From positions 1 through 64,000 of the forward strand of contig JABLXK010000007.1 in NCBI GenBank assembly GCA_013178095.1: DNA of 64,000 bases, read 5' to 3'. The stretch is from Anaerolineae bacterium. GTDB lineage: Bacteria; Chloroflexota; Anaerolineae; Anaerolineales; Anaerolineaceae. Below are positions 38,327-48,019 of the stretch, in pieces. Each line of letters starts with the position of its first letter. Within the stretch, counting starts at the first letter, position 1. The notes under the pieces were generated by a model. The model had not been told where the DNA came from. It was given only the letters and a program-made list of their open reading frames with translations, and searched no databases. The position numbers were made by a program, and so were the translations under genes.

Positions 38327-39574
38327 TTACTCCCATCCGAATAATTTTCGGATGATATTCATCGAGAAACGCTCACGCAGGTACAGGCCGTAATTCTTGG
38401 CAGTTTCGACTTGCTCGGCGGTGATCTCCAGTTCTGCGGCAGTGGTCGGCGCTCCCAGCAGCTTCAACCAGCTCCGCACCTGTTCGGCAGTCGGTACGTT
38501 GGCCGCCAAAGACTGGATCTCGTCCCAATGCTCCAGGATACGCTGCCGGCTGCGTTCGAGCAAAGCCGGATCAGCCATTTGCAGGTAGATCGGGTTGCCA
38601 TGCACCAATTCCTCCGCGATCAGCGGGACATGCGTTTCGATGGCTTTGATCTGCGCTGCCCGATCGGGCACGACTGCCTTGTTAAGCAAGCTTTCCGCTT
38701 CGGCCCTGGAAAGCGCGCGCAGGCGTTCGTACCACTCCGCTTCGATGATGGTGGCAACACCCACGGCATGGCCATGGAACAGACCATCGCGGCCTTCCCA
38801 GTGGTACATCATCTCCCACAAGTGGGCGATGTGATGTTCACCGCCGGAAGCCGGAGCACTGTTGGCGAAATCGGCCATGCAAAAGCCGCTTTCAAACTGC
38901 GAATCCATCAGGCGGGCCATGCTCTCCGGATCGGAACGCAGGATGCCCTGCAAGGCATCGGCGGACTGGCGGGCGGCATGCAGCGCGTGCCGGTAGATAT
39001 CGTCGTCAAAACCACAGCCCCAGATCAACTGGCTGAATTTCCAATCGGTGGAAGAAGTGAATTTGCTGATGGAATCGCCAAAACCAGAAGCTGTCAGAAA
39101 GCGCGGCGATTCGCAGACAGTCGCGATATCGGTGAAAATGGAAACCGGCGCGTGGCAGTAGATGGACCCTTTCAATCCGCCCACGGTAACCGGGGCATTC
39201 TTGGAAGTGTAAGCGTCCACCGAAGCAGCGGTTGGAAAGGAAACGAAGGGATTGCGGGAGCGGTGGCTGGTGAAACGCGTGATGTCGGTGATGGTGCCGG
39301 AACCCACCGCCACGAACAGGCGCGGCTGCGCATCATAGGCTGCGAAAACGCGCGTCAGGGAGAAATCGTCGGCGTGCAGGTGTTCCGGATTCAAGATTTG
39401 ACTGAGCACGTCCCAACCCTGACCTTTGATGGCTGTCAGCACGCGGTCGCCCAGCACGCGGTAGGTGTTCTCATCCGCGATCAGGTAGAATTTTTTATAT
39501 TCCTTTTCCTTGCAGAATTTTAAGAATTCCTCGATGGCTTTATCGCCAACGTAAATAGGCATGTGGTCGTTCAC
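38327..39574 (-). CDS. sn-glycerol-1-phosphate dehydrogenase homologue (AraM/EgsA family)
   Basis: About 415 residues of the iron/zinc-containing dehydroquinate-synthase-like superfamily. The nucleotide motif VAVGSGTITDITRF near 92-105 and the expected metal ligands are present: Asp in ASGFGDSISKFTSSTDW near 165-180, His in SGGEHHIAHLWE near 243-254, and His in LFHGHAVGVAT near 265-275. AraM and archaeal EgsA reduce DHAP to sn-glycerol 1-phosphate. I use GTG 39574 because AGGAG is 7 nt upstream; ATG 39562 is an alternative. It is the last gene of the operon transketolase N, transketolase C, SIS, VOC, dehydrogenase, which argues for a sugar-phosphate substrate as an alternative to lipid synthesis. 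Confidence 0.88.
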   Translation of the reverse strand: MNDHMPIYVGDKAIEEFLKFCKEKEYKKFYLIADENTYRVLGDRVLTAIKGQGWDVLSQILNPEHLHADDFSLTRVFAAYDAQPRLFVAVGSGTITDITRFTSHRSRNPFVSFPTAASVDAYTSKNAPVTVGGLKGSIYCHAPVSIFTDIATVCESPRFLTASGFGDSISKFTSSTDWKFSQLIWGCGFDDDIYRHALHAARQSADALQGILRSDPESMARLMDSQFESGFCMADFANSAPASGGEHHIAHLWEMMYHWEGRDGLFHGHAVGVATIIEAEWYERLRALSRAEAESLLNKAVVPDRAAQIKAIETHVPLIAEELVHGNPIYLQMADPALLERSRQRILEHWDEIQSLAANVPTAEQVRSWLKLLGAPTTAAELEITAEQVETAKNYGLYLRERFSMNIIRKLFGWE

Positions 39575-39664
39575 GGGCAATCTCCTGAAAGCGCGATATG
39601 GTCGGACTTGTGGATTATACCCCAGCGATGTTTTTCCGCCAAAAACCGGGCAAATTCACAATGA

Positions 39665-40214: not shown

Positions 40215-41312
40215 TTACTTGCGCATCTCCGGTTCCTGGCGGCCGGGCGGGAGAATGGTCTGCAGGATGGATTCCATGGAAGCGGGCGCGTCCGGGTTCA
40301 TGCCGCGCCGGACTGTCCAGTAATATGCCAACAGCTGCACCGCCGGCAGGTAAACCAGGGCGGCCAGATAAGGATCGTCGAAAGCGGGGGTGACGATTTC
40401 ATCATCTGCCAATCCGCCCAGGTCCAATCCTTGCGGGTGAACGGCCAGGATGTAAGCATGGAACCCGCGTGTCAGTTTGAGCAGTTGTTTGCTCAATTCA
40501 ACGTCCTGAGGCATGACCAGGGCATACACCAGCCAGTCTTTATTCAACGCGCCCACCGGTCCTTGCAGCAGGCCGGCAGTGCTGTCGCCGCGCGTGGGGA
40601 TATATGTGGCTTCCTGCACCTTGATGGCGGCTTCCAGGGCGGTGCCGTGATTGCTGCAGGTTCCCACCACGTCGATCAGTTTATGCTCCGCAATTTTGGG
40701 CAGGAGCGCCAGCAGTTGGGGCTCGATGCTCTCGATGAAGCCCTTCATTTCGGCGGACAGAAGGCTCAGTTTTTCCAGGCGCTGCTGCGCGGCTTTATCC
40801 TCCGGGCACGCCAGCGCCAACCCCAGGCGCATGAGCGTGGCCACGCAGGCGCTCACGCTCTTGGTCTTAGGGAAGGTGATTTCCGGGCCTTCCTGCGTGA
40901 TCAGGGATAATTTGGAAGTCTGCGCCAGCAGGCTGTCGGCTACGCCGGTCACGGCTACGCCCAGCGCGCCGGCATCATTGGCGGCTTGCAGCGTGTCAAT
41001 CACCGCGCCGCGCTCGCCCGAGCGGGAAACCACCACCACCAGGCTGTGGGCGTCGACCCAGCGCTGCGCGTAATAACCGGTCTCCTCGGAATTGATCACG
41101 ATGGTCGGAAAGGGGCAATGCACCTGAAAGAGCGGCAGCGCCATCAAACAGGAGGTATAGGAACTGCCCACGCCGGACAGGACGACCTTGTCCACGTTCA
41201 TTTCTTTGGCTTTTTGGGCGATCGCGCGGATGGCGGCCTCGTTTTCCTTCAAAGTTTTTTCAAGCGCAATGGGGCTTTCGTGGATGTAATCCAGCATGTG
41301 ATAGTGTTCCAT
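40215..41312 (-). CDS. Double-SIS sugar isomerase/deaminase-like protein
   Basis: About 365 residues with two tandem SIS domains like the C-terminal isomerase half of GlmS, FrlB and AgaS. The first domain contains VVLSGVGSSYTSCLMAL near 42-58 and VVVVSRSGERGAVIDTL near 94-110; the second contains LIDVVGTCSNHGTALEAAIKVQEAT near 210-234. The substrate would be a phosphosugar or amino-sugar conjugate, isomerised or deglycated. The start at ATG 41312 has AAGGAG 8 nt upstream; a GTG three codons earlier sits inside the spacing region. It lies 12 bp downstream of the transketolase C-terminal subunit, within one operon. Confidence 0.88.
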   Translation of the reverse strand: MEHYHMLDYIHESPIALEKTLKENEAAIRAIAQKAKEMNVDKVVLSGVGSSYTSCLMALPLFQVHCPFPTIVINSEETGYYAQRWVDAHSLVVVVSRSGERGAVIDTLQAANDAGALGVAVTGVADSLLAQTSKLSLITQEGPEITFPKTKSVSACVATLMRLGLALACPEDKAAQQRLEKLSLLSAEMKGFIESIEPQLLALLPKIAEHKLIDVVGTCSNHGTALEAAIKVQEATYIPTRGDSTAGLLQGPVGALNKDWLVYALVMPQDVELSKQLLKLTRGFHAYILAVHPQGLDLGGLADDEIVTPAFDDPYLAALVYLPAVQLLAYYWTVRRGMNPDAPASMESILQTILPPGRQEPEMRK

Positions 41313-41324
41313 TTTGACCACTCC

Positions 41325-42272
41325 TTAATTTTTGTATTTTTTCTTCAATTCAACGGCTTTATTGACCGCGGCCAGGATATCGGGGACGCCAATACGGAAT
41401 TTCTCCGCCAGGTATTCCGCGCTGCCCACCTCGCCGAAAGCGTCGTGGATGCCGACCTTCACGACCGGTACGGGACAGGCTTCGCCGACAATCTCAGAGA
41501 CTGCCGAGCCCAGGCCGCCAATAACGGTATGGTTCTCGGCGCTGACGATGCAGCCGGTTTCAGCGGCACAACGCAGGATGGTTTCTTCATCAATTGGTTT
41601 CAAGCAGGAAAGCGCCACCACGCGCACCTCTATACCAGTTTTAGCTAATTCGTCTACCGCCGCCAACGCCCGTTCCAGCATGATCCCGCTGGCGATGACG
41701 GTCGCGTCCCGGCCTTCGCGCAGGATAAGCGCCTTGCACGGGTCGGCGGCCGCGGCCGGGTCGAGGATGGCCGGGCCGGATTTGCGAATGCCGCGCAGAT
41801 AGGCCGGACCAGGATGATCGGCCTCGTAATGCATGACCGCGTTCAACGAGACCGCGTCCACAGGATCGTACACGCGCATGTTGGGCAGGGCGCGCATCAG
41901 CGCCAGGTCCATCATACTCTGGTGGGTGGCGCCGTTTGAGCCGGAGGTGAGGGCAGCTTCGATGCCGCACAGCTTGACGTTGTTCTGCATGTATGCCACG
42001 GAGATGGCCACCTGGTCGTACACCCGTTGGGTGATGAAGCAGGCGAAGGTGCCGCTGAACACCAGCTTGCCGGAAAGCGCCAGACCGGCGGAAACCCCGA
42101 TCATGTTGGCTTCGGTCACGCCCAGGTTAAGGTAGCGTTCGGGGTATTTTTGGGCAAAGTCACCCGTGTCGCACGCCCGCGAAAGGTCGGCGTCGATCAC
42201 CACCAATTCGGGGTGCGTTTCCGCCAGTTTGAGCAGGCCGGCTCCGTAAGGCTTATCGATCTTTGGGTACAT
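41325..42272 (-). CDS. Transketolase-like protein, C-terminal subunit (pyrimidine-binding and C-terminal domains)
   Basis: A 315-residue half-transketolase. The pyrimidine-binding domain opens with LVVIDADLSRACDTGDFAQKYPERYLNLGVTEANMIGVSAGL near 19-60 and holds the cofactor-activating Glu in GVTEANM. The C-terminal domain runs from about 190 (VIASGIMLERALAAVDEL). It needs the TPP-binding N-terminal subunit encoded 2 bp upstream. Such split enzymes are common in bacteria and include special-purpose transketolases for unusual sugars, such as the two-subunit apulose-phosphate enzyme. The ATG follows GGAGCCTAGGC. Confidence 0.92.
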   Translation of the reverse strand: MYPKIDKPYGAGLLKLAETHPELVVIDADLSRACDTGDFAQKYPERYLNLGVTEANMIGVSAGLALSGKLVFSGTFACFITQRVYDQVAISVAYMQNNVKLCGIEAALTSGSNGATHQSMMDLALMRALPNMRVYDPVDAVSLNAVMHYEADHPGPAYLRGIRKSGPAILDPAAAADPCKALILREGRDATVIASGIMLERALAAVDELAKTGIEVRVVALSCLKPIDEETILRCAAETGCIVSAENHTVIGGLGSAVSEIVGEACPVPVVKVGIHDAFGEVGSAEYLAEKFRIGVPDILAAVNKAVELKKKYKN

Positions 42273-42274
42273 GC

Positions 42275-43150
42275 CTAGGCTCCTTTTCCTGATAAAGCGG
42301 TAAAAGCAGCTTCTGCCGCGGCCAACTGGTTAATGGCAGAACAATATTCGTCTTCGGTGAGCCCCCTGGAATGCCATTCCACTTTAAGTTCCATGAAATC
42401 GAAGCCTTTGCCTTTGATAGTATCCGCGATGATCACGTGCGGTTTGCCCTGTACGGATTTGGCGAGCGCGGCGGCTTTAAGGATCTGCTCCACATCGCTG
42501 CCGTCGATGCGCTGCACGTGCCAGCCGAAGCTCTCCCATTTTTGCACAAGCGGTTCGACGTTGAGAATGTCTTTGGTGAAACCGTCCACCTGCATCTGGT
42601 TGTCGTCCACGAAGGCGATGATTTTGTCAAGCTTGTGCTGGGCAGCGGTCAGGGCGGCTTCCCAGATTTGGCCTTCCTGCATTTCCCCATCACCCATCAA
42701 CACGTAGGTGAAGCGTTCTTTTCCATCCATACGGTCAGCCAGCGCCATACCCGCGGCGATGGAAAGCCCCTGCCCGAGCGAGCCGGAAGAGGCATCGATG
42801 CCGGGCAGTTTGTGCATGTCCAGGTGCTTTTGCAGACGCGTGCCGCTCTTGCCGAAGGTTTTCAATTCCTCGGCCGGGAAAAAGCCCCGGGCGGCCATGA
42901 CGGCATACATGCCCGGGGCGGCGTGCCCCTTGGAAATCACCAGGCGGTCGCGTTTTCCCCACAGCGGCAGGTCGGGATTGATGCTCATGATCCTGAACAG
43001 CAGGCAGGTGAGGATTTCCACGGAGGAAAGCGATCCGCCCAGGTGGCTGGAGCTGCCATAGAAAGTCAGGTCAAGGATGTTGCGCCGGACTTCCAGGCAT
43101 TTCTTTTTCAAATCCAGGATCTCATCTTGCGACCAATCATTGTTCGTCAT
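42275..43150 (-). CDS. Transketolase-like protein, N-terminal (TPP-binding) subunit
   Basis: A 291-residue half-transketolase. The TPP/magnesium motif is VLMGDGEMQEGQIWEAALTAAQHKLDKIIAFVDDNQ near 148-183 (GDGE, then NQ at about 182). Histidines of the active site lie in GSSSHLGGSLSS near 31-42 and ISKGHAAPGMYAV near 70-82. It forms the alpha chain of an alpha2beta2 enzyme with the next gene. It is the first gene of the operon and is transcribed from the strong promoter at 43203-43231. AGAGGG precedes the ATG. Confidence 0.93.
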   Translation of the reverse strand: MTNNDWSQDEILDLKKKCLEVRRNILDLTFYGSSSHLGGSLSSVEILTCLLFRIMSINPDLPLWGKRDRLVISKGHAAPGMYAVMAARGFFPAEELKTFGKSGTRLQKHLDMHKLPGIDASSGSLGQGLSIAAGMALADRMDGKERFTYVLMGDGEMQEGQIWEAALTAAQHKLDKIIAFVDDNQMQVDGFTKDILNVEPLVQKWESFGWHVQRIDGSDVEQILKAAALAKSVQGKPHVIIADTIKGKGFDFMELKVEWHSRGLTEDEYCSAINQLAAAEAAFTALSGKGA

Positions 43151-43176
43151 GCAGCCCTCTTATAGAATATAATTAT

Positions 43177-43194
43177 GTCGTGATGTACCTACAA
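43177..43194. promoter_or_regulatory. Probable GntR operator at the transketolase operon start
   Basis: The sequence GTCGTGATGTACCTACAA matches GTCGTGTTGTTACTACAA at 47148-47165 at 15 of 18 positions. It lies from about +2 to +19 of the minus-strand promoter at 43203-43231. The core has the dyad TGTA-CC-TACA. The adjacent upstream stretch TTATGTC is also shared. Confidence 0.65.
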
Positions 43195-43202
43195 CTTCAC
43201 AG

Positions 43203-43231
43203 AGTATAAAGGCGAACGATGGGCTTGTCAA
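43203..43231 (-). promoter_or_regulatory. Sigma-70 promoter of the transketolase operon
   Basis: On the minus strand TTGACA (43231-43226), an exact 17-bp spacer and TATACT (43208-43203) give a near-consensus promoter with a start near 43196. Confidence 0.88.
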
Positions 43232-43254
43232 AATAAAAATCATCACTTTATAAG
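43225..43254 (+). promoter_or_regulatory. Probable promoter of nagA
   Basis: TTGTCA (43225-43230), 18 bp and TATAAG (43249-43254) read toward nagA. The -35 overlaps the opposite-strand TTGACA of the transketolase promoter, so the two divergent promoters share this segment. Confidence 0.55.
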
Positions 43255-43315
43255 GCTTCCCATTCGTTCATGCGATAAAAATATACCTGCTTATATCAAG
43301 TAAACTGAAAAAAAG

Positions 43316-44470
43316 ATGAACACGCTTATAGAAAATGCGGATATATACACTCCCGATCAGCATATCGTGAACGGTTCAATCCTGATCGATGGGCAAAAGA
43401 TCACAGCGGTCCATTCCGGCAAAACGGCTTCCCTGCCCCCGGATACGCAAATTATCGACGCGCTCGGAAAAAAGGTCATTCCGGGATTGATCGACACGCA
43501 CATTCATGGCGCGGGCGGGTTCGATATTTCGGCCGGCGGCACCCCCGGCGCGGCGCGCTACCTGGCAACCCAAGGCACCACGGCTTTCCTTCCCAGCACG
43601 CATTTCGTGATGACCCACGACGAACTGCTGCGTTCCATCGCGCAGATTGCGGAGGATATGCAAAACATGCAGGAAGGCGCCCAACCCCTGGGCATTCACA
43701 TGGAAGGTCCCTGGATCGCCGCGGACCGCTCGCCTTTCTCGCAGGAGGAACTCTGCTATCCGATCACCCGAGGGGATATCGAGCTGTTTATCAAAGCCTC
43801 CCAGGGCCGGCTGCGCATGGTGACATTCGCGCCGGAATTGCCGGGGTCGCTGGAGGTGATCCCCTGGCTGAAAGAGCAAGGCATCATCCCATCCATCGGC
43901 CATACCAACGCCAGCTACGATTTGACTATGCAAGCGGTGGCATTGGGTCTGAAGCACAGCACGCACACGTACAACGCCATGCCTTCGCTGCACCACCGCA
44001 ACCCCGGCGCGCTGGCAGCCATCATGGACAGCCCGCAAATTTACGCCGAACTGATCGCCGACGGCTTTCACGTGCTGCCGCCCTTGATGCGCCTGTTGAT
44101 TAAAGCAAAGGGCATCGACAGGATCAGCATTGTGAGCGATGCCGTGCCTTTGGCGGGCATGCCGGCCGGCACCGAAATGGATTGGTGCGGGCTGCACATC
44201 GGCACGGACGGCGAGATCAGCATTCTGCCGGACAGGCGCCCGGCAGGGGCTTATAAATTGCTCAACCGTTCGCTCAAAATCCTGGTCGAGAAGGAGGTGG
44301 CTTCGTTTAGCGAGGCGGTGCGCATGGCCAGCACAGTGCCGGCGGAGATCCTGAACGTGAAAAAGGGCCGCCTGACAGCGGGTTATGACGCCGACCTGGT
44401 TATCCTGAATGAGGATTACAATCCATTATTGACCATGATCACAGGGCGGATCGTGTTCTCAAAAATTTGA
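43316..44470 (+). CDS. nagA: N-acetylglucosamine-6-phosphate deacetylase
   Basis: A 384-residue amidohydrolase that converts GlcNAc-6-P to glucosamine-6-P and acetate. Metal and substrate motifs are LIDTHIHGAGGFDIS near 58-72, GIHMEGPWIA near 125-134 (Glu ligand), SIGHTNASYD near 196-205 (His), STHTYNAMPSLHHRNPGA near 216-233 (His), and IVSDAVPLAGMPAG near 276-289 with the catalytic Asp. Full length for the family. It is divergent from the split transketolase operon and followed by two HAD phosphatases. No NagB deaminase is in the window; a double-SIS protein in the divergent operon might substitute, which is speculation. The start is preceded by AAAAAAAG, so the ribosome binding site is weak. 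Confidence 0.93.
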   Translation: MNTLIENADIYTPDQHIVNGSILIDGQKITAVHSGKTASLPPDTQIIDALGKKVIPGLIDTHIHGAGGFDISAGGTPGAARYLATQGTTAFLPSTHFVMTHDELLRSIAQIAEDMQNMQEGAQPLGIHMEGPWIAADRSPFSQEELCYPITRGDIELFIKASQGRLRMVTFAPELPGSLEVIPWLKEQGIIPSIGHTNASYDLTMQAVALGLKHSTHTYNAMPSLHHRNPGALAAIMDSPQIYAELIADGFHVLPPLMRLLIKAKGIDRISIVSDAVPLAGMPAGTEMDWCGLHIGTDGEISILPDRRPAGAYKLLNRSLKILVEKEVASFSEAVRMASTVPAEILNVKKGRLTAGYDADLVILNEDYNPLLTMITGRIVFSKI

Positions 44471-44489
44471 TTTTGCAGGGTAACTGATC

Positions 44490-45314
44490 ATGATGAAAAA
44501 TCCACAAACGGCTATCGAGCTGGTGGCGATCGACTGCGACGGCACCCTGCTGGATTCGCGGAAAGAAATTTCCACGGGCGCCGCGAAAGCCATCGCGGAG
44601 GTCAACGCAGCCGGCATTCAAACAGCGCTGATCACCGGGCGCAACGTGGACGCCGTGCGCTTCATTCTCGACGCCATCGAATTAAGCGGGCCGATGGTGG
44701 GCTGCGGCGGGGCGTTCATTTACGATCAGCATTCGCGCAAAACCCTGGAAATGCACACCTTGCCGATGGACAAAACTATCGAACTGGTCAAGATTTGCCG
44801 CGATTACCAATCCGTGCTGTACCTGGAATATTTACACTATGCCATTTACGAAAAAACCAATGCGTTGATGGAGCACCTGAACAGCCTGCATCAATACAAC
44901 CGCCGCAGGGTATCCGATTTACTGTCCGAAATACAGACCGAACCGGTCAAAGCTATGGTCATCGGGGAAGAGAACGTCAGCAGTGTGATTGACGAAATTC
45001 AGAGAAGAGGACTATTCGGGAATTTTGTGTTTGCGGATGCTTTTTCCGCGGACATCCTTCCGGAGAGTGTGAACAAGGGCGTGAGCCTGCGTTCGCTGGC
45101 CGACATTCAGGGCGTTCCCTTGGAGCGCGTGGCCGTAGTCGGCGATTGGTTGAACGATCTGGATATGTTCAACGTGGGTGGATACAAGATCGCCATGGGC
45201 AACGCTCCCGCTGAATTGAAAGCGCAGGCCGACCTGATCGCCCCGACCAATGATGAAGGCGGCCTGGCTTGGGCTTTACGAAAAATATTGAAGTTCAAAC
45301 GGGAAAAACAATGA
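44490..45314 (+). CDS. Cof-type HAD hydrolase (sugar phosphatase), copy 1
   Basis: A 274-residue type IIB HAD phosphatase. Motif I is VAIDCDGTLLDS near 12-23, motif II ALITGRN near 44-50, and the motif III/IV region GVSLRSL followed by VAVVGDWLNDLDMF near 210-223 and KIAMGNAPAEL near 228-238. The cap lies between about 80 and 190. Such enzymes dephosphorylate sugar phosphates and nucleotides; its position after nagA suggests a role in the same pathway. It is closely related to the next gene. Confidence 0.9.
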   Translation: MMKNPQTAIELVAIDCDGTLLDSRKEISTGAAKAIAEVNAAGIQTALITGRNVDAVRFILDAIELSGPMVGCGGAFIYDQHSRKTLEMHTLPMDKTIELVKICRDYQSVLYLEYLHYAIYEKTNALMEHLNSLHQYNRRRVSDLLSEIQTEPVKAMVIGEENVSSVIDEIQRRGLFGNFVFADAFSADILPESVNKGVSLRSLADIQGVPLERVAVVGDWLNDLDMFNVGGYKIAMGNAPAELKAQADLIAPTNDEGGLAWALRKILKFKREKQ

Positions 45315-45464
45315 GAAACGTGACCATCTCCGATAGTTTGAGAATCCCGAACATAAAAATGACGGACATATTATAATGAACGACTGATTGCGTTTTGGGG
45401 TTAGACAATCACCCCGGCTTGAATCAATTTTTAAAAAGAAAGCTCCATAAGAGAAATTCCTGAA

Positions 45465-46277
45465 ATGAAAAACAAACAGAACAGGTCATTCGACCTGGTT
45501 GCTATCGACTGCGATGGTACATTGCTGAATACCGACAAGACCATTTCGGATGGCGCCAAGGAAGCCATCGATCAGGTAAAAGCCACGGGGGTGGAAATCG
45601 CCTTGATCACCGGCCGCAATCTGGGAGGCGTGACATTCATTGTCAGCGAACTTGGGCTGGATGGATTGATCGTCGGCTGCGGCGGCGCAGTTCTTTACGA
45701 TATTAAAACCTCCCGGACGATCGAGTGGCATCCATTACCGAAAAATGAAACTGCCGAATTGATCCGGATTTGCCGCAGGCAGGATGCGCTGCTCGTCCTC
45801 GAGAATTTGGAATATTCGGCATACGAGAAAGCGGTTGATGAAAAGGAAAGCCAGGATCGGGCAGCTAAATTCAACAACCGCAAAGTGGATGATTTGATGC
45901 AGGTTATCGACGAAAACCCCATCAAAGCAGTGCTCGTCGGCGAACCGGAAGCCATTCAGGCAGCGCTCGCGGAAATTGAGAGCCTCCAATTATCATTCAA
46001 TCTTGCCATGTCCGGCCCGAATTCCGTCGACATATTGGCAAAAGGGATCAACAAGGGTTCGGGGTTGAGAGCGCTGGCAAATGTCAGGAATATCCCACTG
46101 GAAAGGATCGCGGTGATCGGCGATTGGCTGAATGACCTGGATATGTTCAAAGCCAGTCATTTTTCCATCGCGATGGGCAACGCTCCTGAGGAATTAAAAG
46201 CTGAAGCCGACCTGATCGCCCCCACCAACGACGAGGGCGGGGTCGCCTGGGCTTTGCGGGAGATAATCGGAAGTTAA
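45465..46277 (+). CDS. Cof-type HAD hydrolase (sugar phosphatase), copy 2
   Basis: A 270-residue paralogue of the preceding gene, with VAIDCDGTLLNT, ALITGRN, GSGLRAL, IAVIGDWLNDLDMF and SIAMGNAPEEL in the same positions. The C-terminal 65 residues are nearly identical in pattern between the copies, while the caps differ. A tandem duplication is the simplest reading, with possible change in substrate range set by the cap. The spacing to copy 1 is 150 bp, so it may have its own promoter. Confidence 0.9.
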   Translation: MKNKQNRSFDLVAIDCDGTLLNTDKTISDGAKEAIDQVKATGVEIALITGRNLGGVTFIVSELGLDGLIVGCGGAVLYDIKTSRTIEWHPLPKNETAELIRICRRQDALLVLENLEYSAYEKAVDEKESQDRAAKFNNRKVDDLMQVIDENPIKAVLVGEPEAIQAALAEIESLQLSFNLAMSGPNSVDILAKGINKGSGLRALANVRNIPLERIAVIGDWLNDLDMFKASHFSIAMGNAPEELKAEADLIAPTNDEGGVAWALREIIGS

Positions 46278-46278
46278 G

Positions 46279-46306
46279 AACAGGCGCCGGATCACCGGCG
46301 CCTGTT
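46279..46306. terminator. Bidirectional terminator between HAD and SIS genes
   Basis: A 12-bp perfect stem (AACAGGCGCCGG / CCGGCGCCTGTT) with an ATCA loop. The plus side continues AGTTT, and the minus side TTAAC. It lies between convergent stops only 32 bp apart. Confidence 0.85.
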
Positions 46307-46309
46307 AGT

Positions 46310-47059
46310 TTAACCGCAAATATAGCGTTTCCCGCCGAAGCGGTCGTACAACAAGCGGGTGCGCTCGTCGCCGCCGGGAACGTTGGCGCTGGTCCAAATG
46401 GGCGGCTCGAAGCCGTCGGCATGCATGCGCGCCGCCACTTCCGCCACGATGGTCTGAACGATGGTCGCGCCGGCCAGCGTGGAAAGCGAAGAAGCCTTGG
46501 GCAAACCCGGAGCGATTTCAACGCAGGCATCTCCCACATCAATGCAGTTATCGATCACCAGGTCGGCGATTTCGTAGAGTTTCTTTCCGCTCGAATGGCG
46601 GCTGTGGGCAGCCCGCGATTGGGTCAGGTTGGTCATGGCGATGATTTTCAACCCGCGTTCTTTTCCGATCATGGCCACCTCGATCGGGACAGCGTTGATG
46701 CCCGAATTGGAGACCACCAGCAGCACCTCGCCCTTGCGCAGATCGTAACTGGCCATGATGATCTTGGCATAGCCTTCCAGCCGCTCCAGGTTGGTACCAC
46801 GGGTGGGCGAGCCGCCGCCGAACATCGACAGGTTCACGTCCAGGATGGCATCCACCGGCGCCAATCCTCCGGCGCGGTAGAAAAGTTCCTCACACATGGC
46901 GTGGCTGTGCCCGCTGCCGAACACATGCCAGACACCGCCCTGTTCGATTGAGTCCTTGATCCAATCGGCGGCTGTTTCGATGGCCTGCGCCTGGGTTTCG
47001 CGGATCTGTTTCAATACTTCCATGCTTCTTTCAAAAAAATCGTTGCCTTTGGTTAACAT
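46310..47059 (-). CDS. SIS-domain protein (UPF0309-like)
   Basis: A 249-residue single SIS-domain protein. Conserved blocks are VWHVFGSGHSHAMCEELFYRAGGL near 43-66, EVLLVVSNSGINAVPIEVA near 108-126, and KIIAMTNLTQSRAAHSRHSSGKKLYE near 136-161. It matches uncharacterised phosphosugar-binding proteins of the UPF0309 type, often encoded in sugar utilisation loci. It is transcribed divergently from the GntR gene from a consensus promoter (47165-47193). The ATG follows GAGGTTCCT. It may bind or isomerise an amino-sugar phosphate. Confidence 0.87.
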   Translation of the reverse strand: MLTKGNDFFERSMEVLKQIRETQAQAIETAADWIKDSIEQGGVWHVFGSGHSHAMCEELFYRAGGLAPVDAILDVNLSMFGGGSPTRGTNLERLEGYAKIIMASYDLRKGEVLLVVSNSGINAVPIEVAMIGKERGLKIIAMTNLTQSRAAHSRHSSGKKLYEIADLVIDNCIDVGDACVEIAPGLPKASSLSTLAGATIVQTIVAEVAARMHADGFEPPIWTSANVPGGDERTRLLYDRFGGKRYICG

Positions 47060-47147
47060 AGGAACCTCGTTTTTCAGGATTTTTTACCGATATAGACTCA
47101 ATTATCAGCACAAAAAAAATAATTAGGTAGATAATTTATGTCATGAT

Positions 47148-47165
47148 GTCGTGTTGTTACTACAA
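47148..47165. promoter_or_regulatory. Probable GntR operator between the SIS and gntR genes
   Basis: GTCGTGTTGTTACTACAA shares 15 of 18 bases with 43177-43194. It begins within the last base of the minus-strand -10 (47165) and covers the transcription start of the SIS gene. A second partial copy (TTATGTCATGATGT, 47136-47149) matches the segment upstream of the 43177 site at 13 of 14 bases. The GntR gene divergently starts at 47255, so autoregulation is also possible. Confidence 0.65.
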
Positions 47166-47193
47166 TTATAGTCTATACTATGGATATCGGCAA
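47165..47193 (-). promoter_or_regulatory. Sigma-70 promoter of the SIS gene
   Basis: On the minus strand TTGCCG (47193-47188), 17 bp and a perfect TATAAT (47170-47165); transcription would begin near 47158. Confidence 0.8.
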
Positions 47194-47254: not shown

Positions 47255-48019
47255 TTGAGCGAACGTATTGAAAAACTGGATAGCAAGAGCCCCATACCGC
47301 TCTATTATCAATTGAAATCCTACATCGAGGAGCAGATTGAAACAGGGGTGTGGGAAGCAGGCACGCAAATTCCCTCCGAACTGGAATTAAGCGAACAGTT
47401 CAATATCAGCCGCACCACCATCCGGCAGGCCATCGGCGATCTGGTCAACGAGCGCAAGCTGGAGCGCATTCAGGGACGCGGCACATTCGTTTCCGAGATC
47501 AGCATTGAAAAGCAGATCGAAAGGGTATCCGGTTTCTCTCAGGACATGCGCATGCGCGGCCTGGTGCCCACCTCCGACATTCTCAATTTTGAAGTCGTCA
47601 AGGCCAGCCCGGCGGTCGCCAAAGCCCTGAAGATCAACGAAGGCGATGACGCCATCCTGCTCAAGCGGCTACGAAAAGGCAATGACAAGCGCATCGCGCT
47701 TGAGGTTGTCTACATGGATTACAAAAAGTACAAAGATTTTCTATCGGTCAACCTGGCGAATGAATCCTTATACGAAATGTTGGCCAAGAAGTTCGCGGTC
47801 TGGCCGAAATACTCCCAACAGGTGATCGAGTCGATCAAGTGCCCGGCAGAAGAAGCTGAGTTGTTAGGTATTCAAAAGGGCGATCCGGTTTTTTATTTCC
47901 ACACGACCGCCTTCGACCAGTATGACGAACCGTTGGAATACACCGAAGGGTATTACCGCGGCGACCGCTACATCCTGCACCTGACCAACGTGATCAACCC
48001 CAGTTCGCAATCTAAATAA
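47255..48019 (+). CDS. GntR-family regulator, HutC subfamily (UTRA domain)
   Basis: A 254-residue regulator. The winged helix occupies about 10-75 (PLYYQLKSYIEEQIETGVW, IPSELELSEQFNISRTTIRQAI, LERIQGRGTFVS). The UTRA effector domain follows from about 90 (VSGFSQDMRMRGL, LEVVYMDYKKY, FYFHTTAFDQYDEPLEYTEGYYRGDRY). Family members often sense amino-sugar phosphates, as NagR does with GlcN-6-P, which fits the nagA cluster. The start is TTG 47255 with GAGG five bases upstream. The shared 18-bp sequences near the SIS and transketolase promoters are candidate operators. Confidence 0.93.
   Translation: MSERIEKLDSKSPIPLYYQLKSYIEEQIETGVWEAGTQIPSELELSEQFNISRTTIRQAIGDLVNERKLERIQGRGTFVSEISIEKQIERVSGFSQDMRMRGLVPTSDILNFEVVKASPAVAKALKINEGDDAILLKRLRKGNDKRIALEVVYMDYKKYKDFLSVNLANESLYEMLAKKFAVWPKYSQQVIESIKCPAEEAELLGIQKGDPVFYFHTTAFDQYDEPLEYTEGYYRGDRYILHLTNVINPSSQSK

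Follow-up and report, generated by a model that had tools for sequence, protein, structure and literature searches.

Predicted control of amino-sugar genes by a NagR-like GntR repressor through a non-dre operator in an Anaerolineae bacterium

An 18-bp word that occurs twice in a 64-kb stretch of DNA from an Anaerolineae bacterium (the whole stretch is referred to below as the window) is very probably the docking site of the GntR-type repressor predicted to be encoded next to one of the copies. We consider it highly likely that both copies are operators of this regulator, whose gene occupies positions 47255-48019, and that they govern an amino-sugar regulon which includes three more promoters of the same genome and is subject to effector-released repression.

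Results

The two copies of the word, GTCGTGATGTACCTACAA (positions 43177-43194) and GTCGTGTTGTTACTACAA (47148-47165), were found where the sequence-only reading had placed them, and differ at three of 18 bases, i.e., they are identical at 15. When up to three mismatches were allowed, the pattern matched the 64-kb window only at these two places, compared with 0.07 matches expected by chance. Each copy is contained in a longer minus-strand element, Operator 1 (O1, 43169..43194, TTGTAGGTACATCACGACATAATTAT) and Operator 2 (O2, 47140..47165, TTGTAGTAACAACACGACATCATGAC). With a weight matrix built from nine sites of this genome and of Pelolinea submarina, O1 and O2 scored 32.9 and 36.5, respectively, and were the sole two matches within the window. 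The core of O1 reads TGT-AGGT-ACA, with GT-N4-AC at positions 43185-43192, and is followed by ACA-type half-sites in 8-bp steps. The core of O2 reads TTGT-AGTA-ACAA, with GT-N4-AC at positions 47156-47163, and direct half-sites are present there too. Both cores (GTAGGTAC and GTAGTAAC) carry the GT-N4-AC pattern of GntR/HutC operators, and in the direction of the genes the operator can be read as TTGT-N4-ACA plus ACA half-sites every 8 bp. A further 14-bp stretch had been described as shared upstream of the two words. As a string match it holds at 13 of 14 positions (TTATGTCGTGATGT, 43173-43186, and TTATGTCATGATGT, 47136-47149), but it is not a separate element, since it overlaps the 18-mer in copy 1. 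The register offset between the copies is 3971 for the 18-mer and 3963 for the 14-mer; the element is a direct repeat with an 8-bp period and can therefore be aligned in two registers, which gives the second match.

Both 18-mers overlap the start regions of promoters on the minus strand. The promoter of the transketolase operon (43231 to 43203), located upstream of O1, consists of TTGACA and TATACT elements separated by a 17-bp spacer and matches the consensus at 11 of 12 positions, in agreement with the near-perfect promoter proposed for this copy. The promoter of the SIS gene (47193 to 47165, minus strand; TTGCCG-17-TATAAT, 10 of 12 positions) had also been called a consensus promoter, which is true of its −10 element but not of its −35 element, which is weak. 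The −10 element abuts O2, and the operator indeed begins in the last base of TATAAT. At the sites found, the distance from the −10 element to the operator downstream of it is 0-13 bp. A protein bound there would cover the start region, which is the usual location for a repressor. As a side observation, the minus-strand −35 element of the transketolase promoter overlaps a possible plus-strand −35 element (TTGTCA) of the divergent nagA operon (43203-43255), and one site there could affect both operons.

The candidate repressor (47255..48019, plus strand, TTG start) combines a GntR HTH domain with a UTRA domain (PF00392, 68.9 bits with a cut-off of 27; PF07702, 125.5 bits with a cut-off of 23.8), as do members of the HutC subfamily. 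None of the named NCBIfam equivalogs compared with it (PhnF, HutC, TreR, and others) reached its cut-off; the best match was to the PRK11402 subfamily, at 157.8 bits with a cut-off of 269. The predicted target gene of O2 (46310..47059, minus strand) encodes a SIS-domain sugar isomerase of the PRK02947 subfamily (289.6 bits, cut-off 135). The first gene of the O1 operon, also on the minus strand, encodes the N-terminal subunit of transketolase (42275..43150) and is followed by the gene of the C-terminal subunit (41325..42272). Also encoded on the same strand (40215..41321, start codon uncertain) is a relative of the GlmS isomerase half and of NagB-II deaminase, a SIS protein whose gene probably belongs to the same operon. 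Divergent from O1, on the plus strand, lies nagA, coding for N-acetylglucosamine-6-phosphate deacetylase (43316..44470; TIGR00221, 261 bits, cut-off 226), and after it come two plus-strand genes of HAD-IIB (Cof-type) sugar-phosphatase-like proteins (44490-45314 and 45465-46277). We also observed a gene for a Fe-ADH family protein at 38327-39580 that is kept in Pelolinea. Its best NCBIfam match, which is below the cut-off, is to NAD(P)-dependent glycerol-1-phosphate dehydrogenase. Enzymes of this type are typical of archaeal lipids; the gene here is surrounded by bacterial amino-sugar genes.

The genome to which the window belongs (2.94 Mb, 23 contigs) was searched with the originally reported word. 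Among the best matches were C1:90488 and C1:131633, in the surroundings of which we found a mannose-family PTS operon (IIC, IID, SIS, IIA, IIB) and a nagA-SIS operon. A third extra site, TTGTAGGGACAACATGAC, overlaps the ATG of another nagA at about C6:124363-124364. When written in the direction of the genes, the sites approximate TTGTARNWACAWYAYKACRTYATKAC. Perfect matches to the form GTARNNACAWYAYKAC number exactly five genome-wide, and each lies at one of these amino-sugar/PTS promoters, a result that shows specificity and is no independent test, as the form was derived from the sites themselves. When searched for by itself with three mismatches allowed, the 18-mer was not enriched genome-wide over a reversed control (9 versus 14 matches), and weak matches were left out as evidence. 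The genes at the sites are those of amino-sugar uptake and catabolism: three nagA genes (one of them divergent), a GalNAc/mannose-family PTS, and SIS isomerases. An OmpR-type response regulator encoded divergently from the PTS operon was considered as a binder of the direct repeats and was rejected, as it is not found beside the corresponding Pelolinea site.

The congener used for comparison was Pelolinea submarina MO-CFX1 (Anaerolineaceae; NZ_AP018437.1). Its GntR is 81% identical to that of the window and is the only close orthologue; among the Anaerolineaceae genomes, GntR proteins of more than 44% identity were found only in the window genome and in Pelolinea. Conservation of the motif upstream of orthologues had been put forward as a check of the initial prediction, and it was observed at the Pelolinea SIS/GntR promoter: the intergenic region keeps GTAGTGTTGTAACTACAA, with most flanking bases changed and gaps needed in the alignment. 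Pelolinea also has sites at the PTS operon and at nagA-SIS, plus one at another promoter, at about 3348374-3348375. The 18 bases of the latter site, TTGTAGGGACAACATGAC, are identical to those at the third nagA of the window genome (L118:12364); Pelolinea lacks that nagA, and the site is followed by an oxidoreductase gene. A fifth zero-mismatch match in Pelolinea lies inside a coding gene, apparently that of a glycine dehydrogenase subunit, and was taken as chance. The nagA intergenic region of Pelolinea contains only a weak site (score 15.0). A scan of the Pelolinea transketolase locus (58% identity) revealed no site, and the transketolase part of the regulon is therefore based on the window genome. 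The idea that the transketolase operon and the SIS gene form one GntR regulon is supported by the recurrence of the site at amino-sugar promoters and by the HutC-type architecture of the operator. The predicted regulon is wider than proposed, taking in nagA paralogues and the PTS operon in addition to the transketolase and SIS genes.

The strict motif TGTARNNACAWYAYKACR is present in four copies in the window genome, in three copies in Pelolinea, and in no more than one copy in each of 145 other Anaerolineaceae genomes. The single strict matches, found in four of these other genomes, are all non-coding; one has a GntR gene and a PTS-like gene as neighbours, and two are next to apparent sugar-transport genes.

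The sites might bind another regulator of the same genome, such as a HutC-type GntR paralogue, in which case the adjacent GntR would have a different operator. Four other HutC-type homologues, with 25-39% identity, are indeed encoded in the genome, and the paralogues L003 and L004 resemble the window GntR in having no Arg at HTH position 28 (see below). However, the motif was found upstream of none of the paralogues, and it occurs where the adjacent GntR or its close orthologue is encoded, being present in the window genome and in Pelolinea and absent from two congeners with other GntRs. Moreover, a site of this type is also present at the promoters of the nearest GntR relatives (44% identity, in genomes G033 and G055), with TTGTTATRACATCATGAYGTTG directly upstream of gntR. 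We thus regard binding by another regulator as unlikely.

The tie of this operator type to HutC-GntR genes was assessed by scanning 275 bp at the start of genes with the weight matrix. Sites of the same type (score of at least 10) were found upstream of 18 of 30 further HutC-GntR genes from this order and upstream of 10 of 332 control genes (3%), and the scores of the two sets differed accordingly (Mann-Whitney p=1.4e-12), in a comparison where the matrix was built from sites chosen for matching and related GntR genes are not independent. The three best-scoring control genes are GntR genes themselves. GT-N4-AC is present in all nine sites of the window genome and Pelolinea. A third half-site, counted as such when alike in four or five of five bases, was located exactly 8 bp further in 13 of 18 palindromes upstream of GntR genes (a set that excludes the window and Pelolinea) and in no more than three at any other offset; a lesser rise in half-site recurrence was seen at 16 bp.

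HutC regulators are reported to recognize a GT-N4-AC core with weaker extra boxes 7-12 nt from its centre (PMC4494728; the set contains no Chloroflexi HutC regulators). The 8-bp step observed here places the extra box ~11 nt from the palindrome centre. The present operators resemble those HutC operators in combining the core with a weaker directly repeated box at about this distance. They differ in that an additional box, set at a constant 8-bp step, is normally present and is often followed by a second one.

The residue at HTH position 28 is reported to correlate with the base at the outer end of the half-site, G being paired with Arg (PMC4494728). The same covariation was evident in our set: all 11 regulators with TGGT sites had Arg at this position, as did one of 25 with TTGT, ATGT, or other non-TGGT sites (Fisher p=2e-8, kinship ignored). 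In the window GntR, the position (numbered as in the Pfam domain) corresponds to residue 43 and is occupied by Leu, as it is in the Pelolinea GntR, which fits the predicted TTGT half-site.

These data also bear on the possibility that the true GntR operator is a dre-like palindrome, TAGTCTATACTA (47169-47180), as is the case for NagR and DasR, and that the 18-mer is something else. The palindrome lies in the spacer/−10 region of the SIS promoter, adjoining O2; it is a perfect match to the HutC consensus GTMTAKAC, and the window contains no other TRGTMTAKACYA. Yet Arg-28, which accompanied TGGT half-sites in every case, is replaced by Leu in the window GntR, the palindrome is absent at O1, and its GT is lost in Pelolinea. 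The palindrome was dropped as the true operator on the latter two grounds, and we judge this possibility to be very improbable. Finally, two similar 18-mers that lie 4 kb apart and both overlap promoters might go back to a local duplication of recent date, or to a promoter element that they have in common, with no regulator involved. This explanation is scarcely credible, being largely refuted already: only operator bases are common to both copies, and promoters of related function on other contigs and in another species carry the same word between flanks that have diverged.

Discussion

NagR (YvoA) of Bacillus subtilis and DasR of Streptomyces are GntR/HutC regulators that act at dre sites and whose affinity for DNA is lowered by GlcN-6-P or GlcNAc-6-P (PMC4333415, PMC4918961). 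The regulator predicted in the window is like NagR and DasR in having a GntR HTH and a UTRA domain, in targeting nagA and an amino-sugar PTS, and in using a palindromic GT-N4-AC core at the promoter. It is unlike them in its TTGT rather than TGGT half-site, in the Leu rather than Arg at HTH position 28, in the extra direct half-sites every 8 bp, and in a regulon that adds a split transketolase and SIS isomerases. The two operators, which read TTGTAGTAACAA and TTGTAGGTACAT, do not resemble the dre-type sequences TGGTATAGACCA and TGGTCTATACCA. From the sequence comparisons, it is a well-supported prediction that a NagR-like GntR repressor governs an amino-sugar regulon through an operator that is not of the dre type, and gene switches of this general kind are known.

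The sites, their conservation, the promoter geometry, the content of the regulon, and the statistical tie of the operator type to HutC-GntR genes are observations, from which binding, repression, the effector, and the oligomeric state are inferred. Without effector, a GntR dimer would sit on TTGT-N4-ACA, aided by one or two half-sites 8 bp apart. Bound in this way, GntR would cover the +1 region just past the −10 element and repress the transketolase operon and the SIS gene, and binding of an effector to the UTRA domain would lead to its release. The same GntR may control three further promoters, those of the mannose-family PTS/SIS operon, the nagA-SIS operon, and the third nagA. Since amino-sugar genes are targeted, the analogy to NagR and DasR points to an amino-sugar phosphate as the probable effector, e.g., GlcN-6-P, GlcNAc-6-P, or a GalNAc analogue. 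Their positions make it plausible, though less strongly so, that O1 also controls the divergent nagA and that O2 controls gntR; as O2 is ~90 bp from the gntR start, autoregulation would be less direct than repression of the SIS gene.

Directly repeated half-sites are found with other GntR regulators of amino-sugar genes, NagQ (TGGTATT repeats) and NanR (TGGTATAW repeats; both as cited in PMC4494728), which the window regulator resembles in this respect. Unlike in NagQ and NanR operators, the repeats here follow an inverted pair, giving a mixture of palindrome and direct repeats, and NanR is a member of the FadR rather than the HutC subfamily. Tentatively, HutC-type GntRs of Anaerolineales might in general read such a mixed operator, an inverted pair followed by direct half-sites at a fixed 8-bp step, although we would sooner bet against this generalization than for it. 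If it were true, more than one dimer, or an asymmetric oligomer, would assemble on the promoter; our literature search found no description of such a binding mode for sugar-sensing HutC regulators. Because an extra half-site at this constant 8-bp step is shared by many HutC regulators, the function of such boxes can be tested directly. More broadly, few regulators have been studied in the class Anaerolineae, for which the analysis provides an amino-sugar regulon and operator that can be tested; it also gives a likely physiological role to the split transketolase and several SIS isomerases.

Separately, a second group of GntR genes (L026, L027, L028, L042, L044, L045, and L046) was observed to have sites of the TTGTAATTACAGGATTACAA type and a recognition helix of the form SRTV[VI]RQ, and here again a third half-site is found at 8 bp.
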